From Robertkochia sediminum (GTDB lineage Bacteria > Bacteroidota > Bacteroidia > Flavobacteriales > Flavobacteriaceae), in NCBI RefSeq assembly GCF_016786255.1, contig NZ_JADMKT010000064.1, forward strand, positions 124,001 through 188,000: 64,000 nt of DNA. Direction: 5' to 3'. Both the position numbers and the translations under genes were made by a program. The notes beneath the pieces were generated by a model. It did not search any database and had not been told where the DNA came from. It worked only from the letters and a program-made list of their open reading frames with translations. Position 1 is the first letter of the stretch. Every line of letters begins with the position of its first letter. This document shows, in pieces, positions 47,207 to 52,324 of this stretch.

Positions 47207-47881
47207 ATGCAAGGATTATTCTCGAATTTCAAGATCCAGATCAATGAGAACATCTATCTCAAAGATCCGGAATCATCAAAACTTGGAAAGAAGATCATAG
47301 ATCACAGCATCCTGCTAATCGACGAAATAGGCTTCGAGCATTTTACCTTTAAAAAGCTCGCAGACAAGATCGGTTCGACAGAGAGCTCGATCTACCGCTA
47401 TTTCGAAAACAAGCACCAACTGCTGGTATATCTCACCGACTGGTATTGGTCCTGGATGGAATACAAACTGGTTTTCAACACCCACAACATGTCCAATCCG
47501 AGCAGCAAGCTCGAACTCGCCCTGGAGATCGTAACTATGGCGCCTGAAAAAGACGAGAACTTCTCTCATATCAATGAGGTGGTTCTCGGGAGTATTGTGA
47601 TCTCAGAGTTTTCCAAATCCTACCTCACCAAGGAGGTCGATCAGGAGAACAAGGAGGGATACTTCGCCACTTTCAAGCGACTGGTAGGCAGGGTAGCCCA
47701 ATTCATCACAGAGGTTAATCCGCAATACCCACATCCAAGAAGTCTGGTGTCTACCGTAATACAGGGGGCACTTCATCAACAATACAGCAAGGCACACCTG
47801 CCCAGTCTTACCGACTTCAACGACAACAAGGAGTTAGTAGATTTTTACAAACAATTGGTTCTAACGCAGATCAACGCATAA
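47207..47881 (+). CDS. TetR/AcrR family transcriptional regulator
   Basis: The 224-residue protein has an N-terminal helix-turn-helix at about residues 43-70 (FTFKKLADKIGSTESSIYRYFENKHQLLVYL), the hallmark of TetR regulators. It is preceded by a longer than usual lead of about 25 residues. The C-terminal ligand domain (about 80-224) is helical and unassigned. It is followed after 3 bp by the ABC transporter gene, so it is the first gene of the exporter operon. The 17 bp palindrome just upstream is the likely binding site. The ligand may be the substrate of the exporter. Confidence 0.92.
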   Translation: MQGLFSNFKIQINENIYLKDPESSKLGKKIIDHSILLIDEIGFEHFTFKKLADKIGSTESSIYRYFENKHQLLVYLTDWYWSWMEYKLVFNTHNMSNPSSKLELALEIVTMAPEKDENFSHINEVVLGSIVISEFSKSYLTKEVDQENKEGYFATFKRLVGRVAQFITEVNPQYPHPRSLVSTVIQGALHQQYSKAHLPSLTDFNDNKELVDFYKQLVLTQINA

Positions 47882-47884
47882 CTT

Positions 47885-49570
47885 ATGGAAAACACGAAAA
47901 AGATCATCACATCCTGGCAGCGATTTATCAATATGCTCAGCCTGGATAAAAAAGACATTTACCAGATCGCGTACTACGCCGTGTTCGCAGGTCTGGTGAG
48001 TCTTACCCTACCGCTGGGAATTCAGGCCATCATAAACCTTATCCAGGCTGCACAGCCCTCTACGAGTTGGGTGGTTCTCGTGGTATTGGTCACTCTGGGA
48101 GTAGCCTTTACCGGTATCCTTCAACTTATGCAGCTACGCATCATAGAAAATATCCAGCAAAAGATCTTTACCCGGTCGGCCTTCGAATTCTCCTACCGCT
48201 TCCCAAAGATCAAAATGAGCGAGCTGGACGACTATTATCCGCCGGAGCTGGCCAATCGTTTTTTTGATACCCTTACCATTCAAAAAACCTTATCGAAACT
48301 CCTCGTGGACATCCCGGCAGCATTCTTGCAGATCATTTTCGGATTGGTTCTGCTGTCCTTTTACCACCCGTTCTTTATCGCCTATGGCATTCTGCTCATT
48401 GTGTTGATCTACATCGTATTTAAATTCACATACAGCAAGGGGCTAAGTACGAGTCTGGAAGAATCTAAATACAAATACAAGATCGCCCACTGGATACAGG
48501 AGATCGCCCGTTCTATCGTAAGTTTCAAACTTTCAGGAAAAACCTCTCTGGCCATGCAAAAAAGCGACTCCCTGGTCAATGATTACCTCGATGCTCGCGA
48601 GAGTCACTTCCGCATACTCATCGTACAGTTCATCCAAATGATCGGCTTTAAGGTACTGGTAACCGCAGGACTCCTGGTGGTTGGTGGTTTACTGGTACTC
48701 AACCAACAAATGAACATCGGTCAGTTCGTAGCGGCAGAGATCATCATCCTTTTAGTGATCACCTCTGTAGAGAAACTCATTCTGGGGCTGGAACCTTTTT
48801 ACGATATGCTTACTTCTCTTGAAAAACTGGGGCAAGCTGTAGATAAGGAATTGGAACAACAGGAAGGAGAGCTTGAGCTTGACGAGACCAAAGATGATCT
48901 TTACATTAGCCTCGAGGAGGTAGCCTATCATCAGCCTACCAGCAAAAAGAATATTATCAAGGATATTAACCTGGTCATTAATCCACGTGACCTCATCCTT
49001 GTGCGAGGGGCCAACGGATCGGGTAAATCGACCCTCCTCAAGGTCATCGCCGGATTGTTCGAACCTACAGAGGGCAATATGTTCATCAACAATCACAACG
49101 GCAGGGTTATTCGCCCCAATGCCTACAGAGCGCTTTTGGGGCATGCCATCACTGAAGAATCGCCTTTTGAGGGCACCATTCTGGAAAACCTCACCTTTGG
49201 CGACACCTCCCTTACCACCAAAGACATTGACTGGGCAATTGAGATGGCAGGCCTCAGAGAGTTCGTAAAAGCCCAACCTAACGGCCTCAATACGATCTTA
49301 AAACCCGAAGGTTGGCAAATGTCGCATACAATCATGAAAAAGATCGTACTGGCAAGGAGTATTATCAGAAAACCGAAACTCCTGATCCTTTCAGATCCGC
49401 TCAATCAGTTCGACGCCAGCGAAAAGGAACGACTTATCTCCGCATTAACCGCCCCAGAGCGTCCGTGGGCTATTATCGTAGAAAGTAACGATCCGCGTTG
49501 GGCAGCAAATTGCGGTCGCATCATTACTATGGAAAACGGAAAGATCATCAACATCAAAGAACAATCATAA
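47885..49570 (+). CDS. ABC exporter permease/ATPase with degenerate nucleotide-binding domain
   Basis: The 561-residue protein has an N-terminal transmembrane domain with about six helices (residues 25-320) and an NBD from about 345. Walker A is intact (RGANGSGKST near 374-383). Other motifs are strongly changed. The signature is MSHTI at 479-483 rather than LSGGQ, the Walker B Asp504 is followed by Pro rather than the catalytic Glu, and the switch His is replaced (ESN at 533-535). The Q-loop also reads GHAI. The protein overlaps the HlyD gene by one base (TAATG). It lacks the peptidase domain of bacteriocin exporters. ATP may be bound but hydrolysed poorly, or a second NBD may be needed. Confidence 0.9.
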   Translation: MENTKKIITSWQRFINMLSLDKKDIYQIAYYAVFAGLVSLTLPLGIQAIINLIQAAQPSTSWVVLVVLVTLGVAFTGILQLMQLRIIENIQQKIFTRSAFEFSYRFPKIKMSELDDYYPPELANRFFDTLTIQKTLSKLLVDIPAAFLQIIFGLVLLSFYHPFFIAYGILLIVLIYIVFKFTYSKGLSTSLEESKYKYKIAHWIQEIARSIVSFKLSGKTSLAMQKSDSLVNDYLDARESHFRILIVQFIQMIGFKVLVTAGLLVVGGLLVLNQQMNIGQFVAAEIIILLVITSVEKLILGLEPFYDMLTSLEKLGQAVDKELEQQEGELELDETKDDLYISLEEVAYHQPTSKKNIIKDINLVINPRDLILVRGANGSGKSTLLKVIAGLFEPTEGNMFINNHNGRVIRPNAYRALLGHAITEESPFEGTILENLTFGDTSLTTKDIDWAIEMAGLREFVKAQPNGLNTILKPEGWQMSHTIMKKIVLARSIIRKPKLLILSDPLNQFDASEKERLISALTAPERPWAIIVESNDPRWAANCGRIITMENGKIINIKEQS

Positions 49571-50928
49571 TGCTGAACATATCTACAAATCGTGTGAATA
49601 AAAAGGTCGATATAACCACGACCCGCTCCGGAAAGAAGGTATTCTTCAGAGAGCACCACAAAACCTTTAGCCGGTTGTTAGGAATATTCCTCCTGATCAT
49701 GTTGGCCGTTATGTTCCTTCCATGGACTCAGAACGTTCGGGGAGAGGGCTACGTGACCACCTTAACCCCGGGACAGCGTCCGCAAACGGTTCATGCCATT
49801 ATCCCCGGTCGGGTGGAAAAATGGTATGTGAGAGAAGGACAGCATGTAAAAAAGGGCGACACCATTGCCTTCCTTTCAGAGATCAAGGATTCCTACTTTG
49901 ACCCCACCCTGCTTCAACGTACCGAAGCACGACTAAACGCCAAAAAGCAAAGCGTGGCTTCTTATGGAGGTAAGATCAAGGCTTTAGACATACAGATCGA
50001 TAATCTAAGGAACGAGTTGGACCTGAAGACCCAACAGTTGCGCAATAAACTCATCCAGGCCAACCTTAAGGTGGTGAGTGACAGCATCGACCTGGAGGCT
50101 GCAAAGACCAACCTCACTATTGCCGAGAGACAATACAACCGGGCCAACATCCTTAACCAGGAAGGTCTAAAAGCACTGCAGGAGGTTGAAGATAAAAAAA
50201 TGAAACTCCAGGAGGCACAGGCCAAAAAGATCTCTCTGGAGAACAAACTGCTTTCCAGTAAAAACGAAGTACTCAATACCGAGATCGAACAAGGTCGTAT
50301 CCTCGCCGAATACGGCGAGAAGATCTCCAAGGCCGAAAGCGATAAGTTTTCAGCAATGAGCATGCAATTCGAAGGGGAAGGCGAAGTGAACAAACTCGCG
50401 AACCAGTACACCAACTACGAGGTACGAAGGTCATTTAACTATGTCACAGCCCCTCAGAGCGGCTTTATAAATAAGGCTCTCACATCCGGACTGGGAGAAA
50501 CCGTAAAAGAAGGCGACCCCCTTGTGAGCATCATGCCCTCTGATATAGAGATCGCTGTAGAAACATTTATTTCCCCCATCGATCTTCCCCTTATCCACAA
50601 AGGTGAGAAAGTGCGTATTCAGTTCGATGGATGGCCGGTGATCATCTTCTCCGGATGGCCAAACCTATCTTTCGGAACCTTTGGAGGTACCGTAGTGGCT
50701 ATAGAGAACTATATTAGCACCAACGGAAAATACCGTATCCTGATCGCCCCGGACCCGGAAGACCACCCATGGCCCGAAGAGATCCGCGCAGGATCTGGAG
50801 CCCAGACCATTGCCCTGCTCGAAGATGTACCGATCTGGTTTGAGTTATGGCGACAGTTAAACGGATTCCCTCCGAATTACTATCAACCCCAACAGCAAGA
50901 TGGGGATAAAGCAATGAAAAAGAAATAA
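49570..50928 (+). CDS. HlyD family periplasmic adaptor
   Basis: The 452-residue protein has a cytoplasmic start, one membrane helix at about residues 35-53 (RLLGIFLLIMLAVMFLPW), a lipoyl/barrel-sandwich half (VHAIIPGRVEKWYVREGQHVKKGD), and a long coiled-coil region (about 120-270). The second half-motif is FNYVTAPQSGFINKAL, followed by a beta-barrel domain. This is the membrane-fusion protein linking the ABC permease to the TolC channel. I use the ATG at 49570, which overlaps the ABC stop codon. The tail is Gln/Lys-rich and short. Confidence 0.93.
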   Translation: MLNISTNRVNKKVDITTTRSGKKVFFREHHKTFSRLLGIFLLIMLAVMFLPWTQNVRGEGYVTTLTPGQRPQTVHAIIPGRVEKWYVREGQHVKKGDTIAFLSEIKDSYFDPTLLQRTEARLNAKKQSVASYGGKIKALDIQIDNLRNELDLKTQQLRNKLIQANLKVVSDSIDLEAAKTNLTIAERQYNRANILNQEGLKALQEVEDKKMKLQEAQAKKISLENKLLSSKNEVLNTEIEQGRILAEYGEKISKAESDKFSAMSMQFEGEGEVNKLANQYTNYEVRRSFNYVTAPQSGFINKALTSGLGETVKEGDPLVSIMPSDIEIAVETFISPIDLPLIHKGEKVRIQFDGWPVIIFSGWPNLSFGTFGGTVVAIENYISTNGKYRILIAPDPEDHPWPEEIRAGSGAQTIALLEDVPIWFELWRQLNGFPPNYYQPQQQDGDKAMKKK

Positions 50929-50929
50929 T

Positions 50930-52324
50930 ATGACCGGAAGGATTATCATAGCGCTATTTCTACTGCTCTCCCTGAAGGCCTACCCTCAGCAAAACGACAG
51001 TATCTTTGACTTGAACGAGTTTCTCGGTTTTGTCAAGAAGAATCACCCCGTTGCTGCACAGGCCAACCTGAAGATCAATACCGCACAGGCCAACCTGCTA
51101 AAAGCCCGTGGCGGATTTGATCCTAAGATCGCGGTAGATTACGATCGTAAGGACTTTAAAGACACCGAGTATTACGATCTACTCTACGGTACTTTTAAGA
51201 TCCCTACCTGGTTCGGGATCGAACTGCAGGCAGGGTATGAGCTCAACGATGGAAATTTTTTAAATCCGCAGAACGTTGTGCCTGAAGACGGACTCTACAG
51301 TGCGGGGATCTCTGTTCCCATAGGTCAGGGGCTGTTTATTAACGAGCGTATGGCCACCCTGAAGCAGGCAAAGATCTTTACAGAGCTCAATGCCGCCGAA
51401 AGAGAACTCCAGATCAACCAATTGCTCTACGAATCTATCGTAGCCTACATGGACTGGTTTCGCGCCTATCGGGAGTATGAGCTCTACAGTGAGTTCCTCG
51501 AAAACGCCGATTACCGCTTGCGAAACCTGAAACGCCAGATCGAAGAGGGCGACAAAGCCCCCATTGACAGTATTGAGCTGGGTATCACCGTTCAAAACCG
51601 AAGGATCAATCTTAGAAATGCAGAACTATCGCTCCTGCGCTCCCGATTAGCCCTTTCTAACTTTCTATGGGATGAGGCTTATATACCCCTGGAGATCGCT
51701 CAGAGCATACGTCCTGCACCAAACACCCTTGAAACCCTTAGCGCGATCATTGCCAGAAATGGCGCTGAGATCACTAATTTCGACGTGGCCGCTCACCCAA
51801 AGATCAGGGCCATGCGCTCTAAGATCGAAACCCTGGAAGTAGACCGAAGACTGAAGGCAGAAATGCTAAAGCCTGAACTCAACCTCAATTACAATTTCAT
51901 CACCAGTGATGCAGAACAGGTGAACACCATTAACACCGGAGATTACAAGTTCGGACTGGAATTCAGCTTCCCGATATTTCTTCGGAAAGAGCGGGGTGCC
52001 CTGCAAATGAGCAAGTTCAAGATCCAGGATGCCAATTACGCCTTTGAACAGGAAAGCCTTACCCTTAAGAACAAGGTAATCGCTTCACTGGCCAAGGTTG
52101 ACAACTACGTACAACAGCGCGATCAGGTAAATCGGGTGACCACCGATTACGAAGCCCTTTTACAGGCCGAAGAGCGCAAATTCAGCTTCGGAGAGAGCTC
52201 TGTGTTTTTACTCAACTCACGGGAGCGCAGCCTGCTGCAAGCCCGTCTTAAACAGATCGAACTCAACTACAAACTGGCCGAAGCTCAGGCCGAGCTTATC
52301 AGGACTATCGTGCTGGATCCTTAA
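50930..52324 (+). CDS. TolC family outer-membrane efflux protein
   Basis: The 464-residue protein starts with a signal peptide (IIIALFLLLSLKAYPQ). Two similar halves of long helices and beta strands follow, as in TolC. The first has LNEFLGFVKKNHPVAAQANLKI, and the second starts around residue 290 (AAHPKIRAMRSKIETLE). It ends with helices (ERSLLQARLKQIELNYKLAEAQAEL). The start is 1 bp after the HlyD stop, so it belongs to the same operon. It should form the exit duct in the outer membrane. Confidence 0.93.
   Translation: MTGRIIIALFLLLSLKAYPQQNDSIFDLNEFLGFVKKNHPVAAQANLKINTAQANLLKARGGFDPKIAVDYDRKDFKDTEYYDLLYGTFKIPTWFGIELQAGYELNDGNFLNPQNVVPEDGLYSAGISVPIGQGLFINERMATLKQAKIFTELNAAERELQINQLLYESIVAYMDWFRAYREYELYSEFLENADYRLRNLKRQIEEGDKAPIDSIELGITVQNRRINLRNAELSLLRSRLALSNFLWDEAYIPLEIAQSIRPAPNTLETLSAIIARNGAEITNFDVAAHPKIRAMRSKIETLEVDRRLKAEMLKPELNLNYNFITSDAEQVNTINTGDYKFGLEFSFPIFLRKERGALQMSKFKIQDANYAFEQESLTLKNKVIASLAKVDNYVQQRDQVNRVTTDYEALLQAEERKFSFGESSVFLLNSRERSLLQARLKQIELNYKLAEAQAELIRTIVLDP

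Follow-up and report, generated by a model that had tools for sequence, protein, structure and literature searches.

Here, we report an exporter protein of Robertkochia sediminum in which, as judged from sequence alignments, the catalytic motifs of ABC ATPases are gone; they are likewise gone from most of its relatives, and a sister clade keeps the export operon without any nucleotide-binding domain (NBD). The gene lies in a window of 64,000 nucleotides (by which we mean the whole stretch of DNA analysed), and we put at roughly 60% the probability that its product is the inner-membrane component of a tripartite exporter in which the membrane domain (TMD) works independently of ATP hydrolysis by the NBD. 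On this reading, the ABC motor would have become dispensable, decayed, and then been lost once, and the window protein would be an intermediate, its NBD probably serving as a folded structural or regulatory domain and not as a motor.

The window protein and its operon

The exporter gene is an uninterrupted reading frame of 561 codons that is open over its full length. An initial interpretation made from the letters of the DNA (the sequence-only reading) had placed it in an intact TetR-ABC-HlyD-TolC operon, and Pfam matches for all four genes bear this out. The genes, together with the parts of the exporter discussed below, are as follows (positions in the window).

47207..47881, + strand: TetR-family regulator, first gene of the operon (PF00440, 33.5 bits against a cut-off of 24)
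47885..49570, + strand: exporter of 561 aa with a type IV ABC membrane domain and a degenerate NBD (PF00664, 34.4 bits, cut-off 28; PF00005, 63.6 bits, cut-off 25)
47885..48874, + strand: membrane domain (residues 1-330), which is what the family conserves (all 29 orthologues compared are more similar here than in the NBD; the model shows six long helices)
48215..48256, + strand: cytoplasmic turn between TM2 and TM3 with coupling helix 1, residues 111-124, with the PELAN of PELANRFFD (model helices 111-114 and the start of 119-160)
48737..48739, + strand: Glu285, early in TM6, helix 278-300 (Glu in all 89 NBD-less rows and in 174 of the 176 NBD-bearing ones)
48770..48775, + strand: Glu296-Lys297, in TM6 (conservation counted over 89 NBD-less and 176 NBD-bearing rows)
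48905..49561, + strand: degenerate NBD, residues 341-559 (column counts; NBD strands and helices in the model)
49570..50928, + strand: HlyD-type periplasmic adaptor (PF13437, 52.4 bits; TIGR01843, 81.9 bits, under its cut-off of 208.65)
50930..52324, + strand: TolC-type outer-membrane channel (PF02321, 103.5 bits)

PF00664 and PF00005 are thus fused in one protein, both above their Pfam cut-offs, and the operon holds both partners of a tripartite exporter, i.e., the HlyD-type adaptor, whose ATG overlaps the stop codon of the ABC gene, and the TolC-type channel; a second half-transporter was not found in it. Two relatives (82% and 80% identity) are collinear with the window protein across almost its entire length. 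An AlphaFold2 model (pLDDT 89.8, pTM 0.82) predicts a complete type IV exporter fold including the NBD, and superposes on HlyB (8dck_B) with a TMq of 0.90 and an rmsd of 2.6. The TetR control suggests that the substrate may be a small toxic molecule or metabolite.

Within the NBD, the ABC motifs, the A-loop included, are given in their standard register, and the motif columns were placed by alignment with L079-L106, members in which the motifs survive. Counts in the following lines refer to 178 NBD-bearing members of the family.

48932..48934, + strand: column of the A-loop aromatic residue, Gln350 (by the standard register)
49007..49033, + strand: Walker A, GANGSGKST, residues 375-383, kept (column of Lys381 is Lys in 173 of 178)
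49151..49153, + strand: column of the Q-loop Gln, Thr423 (Gln in just 12 of 178)
49319..49333, + strand: signature (LSGGQ) columns, MSHTI, residues 479-483 (at the fourth position, 26 of 178 have Gly and 126 have Ser or Thr)
49391..49396, + strand: Ser503 in the column of the Walker B Asp and Asp504 in that of the catalytic Glu (Asp and Glu jointly in 27 of 178)
49487..49489, + strand: column of the switch His, Asn535, in ESN (21 of 178 have His, and all of these belong to the distant L079-L106)

The sequence-only reading had described an ATPase with Walker A but without the signature motif, catalytic Glu, or switch His, and the alignment confirms its observation of missing motifs as real and family-wide. 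The Walker A that it named is retained, with the pattern G....GK[ST] present as GANGSGKS at residues 375-382 (RGANGSGKST in a longer reading), and both the MSHTI of the signature region and the loss of the switch His in ESN fall in the expected columns. It had taken Asp504 for the Walker B Asp and GHAI for the Q-loop; the hallmark residues are indeed lost at both sites, but Asp504 occupies the Glu column, with Ser503 in that of the Walker B Asp, and the Gln column is now placed more precisely, at Thr423. The A-loop aromatic residue, on which the sequence-only reading had not commented, is present in 21 of 51 close relatives and lost in 30, the window protein with its Gln350 being counted among the latter.

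Decay and loss of the NBD across the family

Of 60 genomes searched, among them that of Robertkochia sediminum itself, 30 hold orthologues, each scoring at least 385 bits, while every non-orthologue match stayed below 124 bits; a profile search extended the family to 97 of 395 genomes of the phylum. Altogether, 303 loci gave 297 TMD reading frames, of which 268 were distinct: 178 with an NBD, 89 without, and one cut by a contig end (L287, left out). The sequence-only reading had proposed aligning the NBDs of homologues for the same losses, and in this alignment all four hallmarks (the Q-loop Gln, the signature Gly, the Walker B Asp with the catalytic Glu, and the switch His) are absent from 135 of the 178 NBD-bearing members, and not one member has all four together. 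The Q-loop Gln occurs in L041-L043, L057, L060, and seven more, while Gly, Asp with Glu, and His are kept jointly in 20 members, all within the distant relatives L079-L106; LSTGQ appears in four rows, again in distant members only. At the Glu column, Asp is found in 108 of 178 and Glu in 38; Asn, Gly, Ser, and Lys are also among the substitutions. Glu is also seen near the window protein (L011, L012, L013, L021, and L023). One member lacks Walker A as well (L078). None of the 30 orthologues has the signature Gly, the His, or the Gln, and a single one, L006 from the genus of the window protein, has Asp-Glu at Walker B, with LPYTV as its signature and with neither His nor Gln. The sequence-only reading would have recognised a local error or pseudogene by close homologues that have both LSGGQ and the catalytic Glu; such homologues were looked for and not found among these 30, and fully canonical close homologues are therefore unlikely. 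Sequencing error or chance is excluded as the origin of the losses, because they occur family-wide.

The usual pattern of conservation is inverted in this family. All 29 orthologues resemble the window protein less closely in the NBD than in the TMD (mean -0.258), whereas for the control L132, another exporter of the window genome compared across the same relatives, the NBD is the more similar domain in 24 of 29 (mean +0.056). Because L132 has Asp in the Glu column, we added L133, a fully canonical exporter of the same genome, as a second control, and here the NBD is the more similar domain in 21 of 29 (mean +0.066); each control represents the best 29 of the other genomes that gave a match (53 for L132 and 59 for L133). 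As comparisons of the window gene with its nearest relatives are mostly saturated in dS, dN/dS was taken from closer pairs among the relatives. In 52 such NBD-bearing pairs, which are not independent, median dN/dS is 0.077 for the NBD vs 0.040 for the TMD, with the NBD higher in 51 of 52 and reaching at most 0.498; for the NBD-less genes (98 non-independent pairs), the median is 0.114 and the maximum 0.276. These substitution rates show that the degenerate NBD diverges faster than the membrane domain yet stays under purifying selection. Since it is held under such selection together with its Walker A, the NBD of the NBD-bearing members does something and has some role.

The 89 distinct members without an NBD (no PF00005) end right after TM6, with 1 to 21 residues beyond the TMD profile. 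The HlyD gene lies directly 3' in 89 of 89, at -100 to +97 nt, and TolC comes next in all 28 loci with at least 4 kb of downstream sequence (the other 61 have ~1.2 to 2 kb); among NBD-bearing loci with room, HlyD is found in 147 of 155 and TolC in 84 of 88. Six of the 97 family genomes show this arrangement as a reading frame of 334-360 aa, then HlyD, then TolC. The only NBD in the neighbourhood of these six belongs to a different kind of ABC ATPase gene, which in L065 lies 4.2 kb downstream, and a second half-transporter was not found beside these NBD-less genes, the first examined. Hosts of NBD-less members include Spirosoma, Fibrisoma, Larkinella, Hymenobacter, Pedobacter, and Mucilaginibacter, as well as Chitinophaga rhizophila, Dyadobacter koreensis, and Sphingobacterium deserti; Spirosoma, Hymenobacter, Pedobacter, and Mucilaginibacter are environmental bacteria. 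The NBD-less share of genomes with a match is 15 of 46 in family f17, 36 of 111 in f24, and 25 of 101 in f23, where open frames of up to 430 aa were counted by eye from scan listings, with sequences fetched for part of them and the partial or contig-cut G485 and G681 left out.

Two trees of the membrane domain place these members in a single group. In the first, of 126 rows (123 representatives of 265 and three outgroup rows), the NBD-less proteins form one side of a branch (SH-aLRT 99) and are nested in a 106-row branch (100) of degenerate and NBD-less members, outside which fall the near-canonical members and three degenerate ones (L084, L087, and L099); long branches meet at the outgroup and make the root unsure, while the clade counts are independent of it. 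In the second, a mixture-model tree of 44 of the 123 (24 chosen and 20 drawn at random), the NBD-less clade has support of 100/99 and is present in 100% of 200 bootstrap trees, and the near-canonical rows have 100/100. Several losses had been suspected, as three genome families hold both kinds of members, but the trees give one; by these phylogenies, the NBD was lost once. That decay preceded loss follows if ABC exporters are assumed to be ancestrally NBD-bearing, a reading of the tree in which the outgroup branches are long. The decay itself, to judge from the tree, happened more than once, because L084, L087, and L099 fall among near-canonical rows. The stages coexist, with near-canonical NBDs, dead NBDs as in the window protein, and no NBD, and HlyD and TolC lie beside nearly all of them.

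The membrane domain and the source of energy

For the NBD-less L231 from Spirosoma telluris, modelling (best model pLDDT 85.4, pTM 0.77; the other four models 63-75) predicts all six long helices that a type IV exporter has, together with its two cytoplasmic turns. The model matches HlyB (8dck_A) with a TMq of 0.85 and an rmsd of 2.5, and in a second comparison with a Z of 26.3 over 327 residues and an rmsd of 3.3; the alignments for the structure models held 39 NBD-bearing proteins plus the window protein in one case and 60 rows in the other. Among proteins of solved structure, those closest in a profile comparison of sequences are ComA (E 1e-9), ABCB10, PCAT1, and, weakly, PrtD.

All 89 NBD-less rows have the same residue at 15 or more ionisable columns, among them E88, E121, R125, K134, K138, H161, E193, K197, R238, H241, E285, K297, D307, K314, and D320. 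Comparisons with NBD-bearing members used 176 rows, two of the 178 being without the needed TMD ends: Lys297 is kept in 170 of these, and Glu296 in 172 of them and in 79 of 89 NBD-less rows (the other 10 have Asp). Among the near-canonical members (n=23), Glu285 is found in 22, Glu296 in 20, and Lys297 in 17; ComA has Asn at the Glu285 column. These three TM6 residues are candidates for ion coupling, and because they are also conserved in NBD-bearing members, the alignments place their origin before the loss of the NBD, so that they were not acquired with a changed energy source. A basic residue at 246 was considered as a feature specific to NBD-less members and ruled out, as 25 NBD-bearing rows share it.

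Coupling helix 1, which contacts the NBD in ordinary exporters, is conserved at 0.84 in NBD-less vs 0.82 in NBD-bearing members, and coupling helix 2 is the least conserved region of the NBD-less members (0.49 vs 0.56). Short helices at 111-114, 119-124, and 211-216 in the L231 model indicate that the coupling helices are not lost. Coupling helix 1 may have been kept as a structural element of the cytoplasmic gate, or for contact with the N-terminal tail of HlyD or with another partner; this tail is short, with a median of 31-33 residues ahead of the membrane helix.

For the preferred reading, in which the membrane domain is independent of ATP hydrolysis by its own NBD, the mechanism would run as follows. 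ATP hydrolysis by the window subunit would not be the energy source, and the NBD would be a relic that persists because it helps in folding, dimerisation, or regulation; its Walker A may still bind nucleotide. By analogy with related membrane domains, a proton gradient is the most likely energy source; less surely, the proton-motive force may power export via Glu285, Glu296, and Lys297 of TM6 together with Lys256 and His241 of TM5. The membrane domain would alternate its access, as do the NBD-less SbmA and truncated MsbA, and HlyD and TolC would carry the substrate outwards, as in EmrAB-TolC. Several observations run against this explanation: coupling helix 1, an NBD contact in ordinary exporters, is kept where there is no NBD, which differs from SbmA; L006 keeps its Walker B Asp-Glu; the NBD with its Walker A is under purifying selection in NBD-bearing members; and the three TM6 residues are older than the NBD loss.

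The sequence-only reading had offered three ways out, i.e., hydrolysis by another route, a second NBD elsewhere, or an ATP-gated or non-hydrolysing exporter, and overall these are partly supported. A motor acting in trans, i.e., a different ABC half-transporter or a stand-alone ATPase whose gene lies elsewhere and which supplies the hydrolysis, would account for the conserved coupling helix 1 of NBD-less members, and the window genome offers three other PF00664 proteins: the canonical L133, which occurs in 60 of 60 genomes such that a partner of this kind would always be at hand, L132, which keeps LSGGQ, His, and Gln with Asp in the Glu column, and L131, which has Walker A, Asp-Glu, and His and is without LSGGQ by pattern. 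We nevertheless consider such a motor unlikely. Neither L132 (54 of 60 genomes) nor L133 tracks the family (30 of 60), and no second half-transporter adjoins the window gene or the six NBD-less genes mentioned above. In 16 NBD-less genomes, a family NBD elsewhere was not found among the family-profile matches listed (~120 bits upward, a limit below which a stand-alone ATPase from a different family may fall), the best of which scored 155 bits and all of which lie in reading frames of at least 583 aa, i.e., in other full exporters, vs 272-320 bits at the family locus in four NBD-bearing control genomes; this disfavours the second NBD of the sequence-only reading. Moreover, because the signature and the Walker B/His of the window protein are both lost, a mixed dimer even with a canonical partner would probably have two defective composite sites.

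The third option fared better, in that a non-hydrolysing exporter comes closest to the preferred reading, while ATP gating is impossible for the NBD-less clade, which has no ATP-binding gate. The remaining form of it, a passive facilitator whose NBD binds but does not split ATP while the substrate flows down its own gradient via HlyD-TolC, draws on the near-universal Walker A Lys, the purifying selection on the NBD, and its predicted fold, and is improbable in the light of that clade, of the loss of the A-loop aromatic residue in the window protein and many close relatives, and of L078 with its missing Walker A. The protein might also be no pump at all and instead serve another transporter as a scaffold or sensor, by assembling HlyD-TolC or opening it; the tight genomic coupling to HlyD speaks for this, but a conserved six-helix exporter fold and so many ionisable columns would exceed the needs of a scaffold, and we rate it as quite unlikely. 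Unusual hydrolysis, with Asp504 in the Glu column or a new signature Ser/Thr replacing the usual chemistry, could be seen in the frequent acidic residues at the former and Ser or Thr at the latter; with substitutions that are not uniform, an NBD that is the faster-changing half in 29 of 29 orthologues, and a sister clade that works without any NBD, this other route to hydrolysis is disfavoured and very unlikely. Missing hallmark motifs might finally point to a pseudogene or sequencing error, a reading that we reject as practically negligible in view of the open frame, the collinear relatives, the orthologues in 30 of 60 genomes, and the dN/dS values of the relatives, which stay under 1 for TMD and NBD alike.

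Relation to known transporters

The family derives from exporters like HlyB and ComA but falls short of them in its catalytic residues. It resembles the HlyB/LssB/PrtD type in its fold (that of HlyB), in its HlyD and TolC partners, and in its best NCBIfam match, TIGR03375 (LssB); it differs in scoring 186.3 bits against a cut-off of 693.1, in having no intact ATP site by motif, and in the absence of the NBD from one clade. Heterodimers such as TM287/288 and TAP also have a substituted catalytic Glu and His and a non-consensus signature, with the losses split between the chains such that one site works, whereas here one chain has lost all of them and has no partner in the operon. In EmrAB-TolC, a proton-driven transporter of the inner membrane works with TolC and an adaptor resembling HlyD; the family is like it in these two partners and unlike it in fold, EmrB having an MFS fold and the family an ABC fold.

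PF05992, which we take to be the SbmA/BacA sequence family, gave no match up to E = 1 in three NBD-less members, nor up to E = 10 in the window protein; SbmA was likewise not among 17 PDB sequences matched up to E = 1 or among the structural matches listed. PMC13316013 describes SbmA/BacA (SLiPT) as a proton-driven type IV ABC membrane domain without an NBD that arose from an NBD-bearing ancestor, and SLiPTs as peptide importers of the YddA lineage that gained TM0 and lost the coupling helices. The likeness lies in the 89 relatives without an NBD (the window protein itself has one); the differences are that the present family keeps coupling helix 1, adjoins HlyD and TolC, and has living members with a decayed NBD, and that it resembles ComA, PCAT1, and HlyB, with export as its direction by operon context, vs import by SbmA. 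The family would thus work like SbmA/BacA and not be a member, as sequence family, direction, partners, and coupling helices differ. For artificial truncations, PMC4979069 reports that MsbA without its NBD (MsbA-MD) exports ethidium driven by a pH gradient, and cites LmrA-MD as a membrane domain that alone exports drug, also driven by a pH gradient; these derive from ATP-driven pumps, whereas the truncation in this family is natural, inherited, and widespread. Together with the natural SbmA, MsbA-MD and LmrA-MD are the prior basis, in the literature that we searched, for an ABC membrane domain run by an ion gradient.

In open-licence PMC papers, we found neither a description of this family nor experiments on, or transport data for, one of its members. 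We see about an even chance that a Bacteroidota lineage of ABC exporters turned from ATP-driven pumps into secondary transporters, in a second ABC-to-secondary transition separate from that of SbmA. If true, it would be the first such transition in the export direction, through a TolC channel, within the literature searched. Natural NBD-less exporters and living intermediates in one family make the question testable with matched pairs, and a protein that domain libraries label as an ABC permease/ATPase may not use ATP.

Residue 248 and the NBD-less clade

The column of Gln248 in the 561-aa window exporter (codon at 48626-48628) holds Gln in 169 of the 176 NBD-bearing rows. Every one of the 89 NBD-less rows carries Phe, Tyr, Leu, or Met there instead, and this change is a mark of the NBD-less clade.

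Genomes and loci with NBD-less genes

Two genomes from the scan of one genome family carry both forms, the short frames being classed as NBD-less by their length: in G622 a family open frame of 577 aa accompanies two of 334-340 aa, and in G590 one of 592 aa accompanies one of 336 aa. At one NBD-less locus (L065), a divergent TetR gene resembling that of the window (L065:5135-5866, minus strand) lies ahead of the NBD-less gene; a similar divergent TetR gene was found in none of the other five NBD-less loci examined alongside it.

Range of NBD decay

In one NBD-bearing member (L078:4492-6147), Walker A is destroyed as well, reading QYEHPLFVRT, and this NBD may represent a stage on the way from decay to loss. 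Three distant members (L104-L106) have some of the least decayed NBDs observed in the family; there the alignment columns show LSTGQ, the Walker B Asp and Glu, and the His to be present and the Q-loop Gln to be absent; these NBDs are possibly still working. Another ABC exporter of the window genome, one of the two conservation controls (L132:7926-9707), keeps LSGGQ and the His, and its catalytic-Glu column is occupied by Asp (DD).

N-terminal extensions

The extension ahead of the membrane domain gave no Pfam match up to E = 1 in the two members searched, L075 and L086. In stop-to-stop frames, approximately 125-260 residues precede this domain in L071-L076, L079-L083, L085, L086, and L088-L102.
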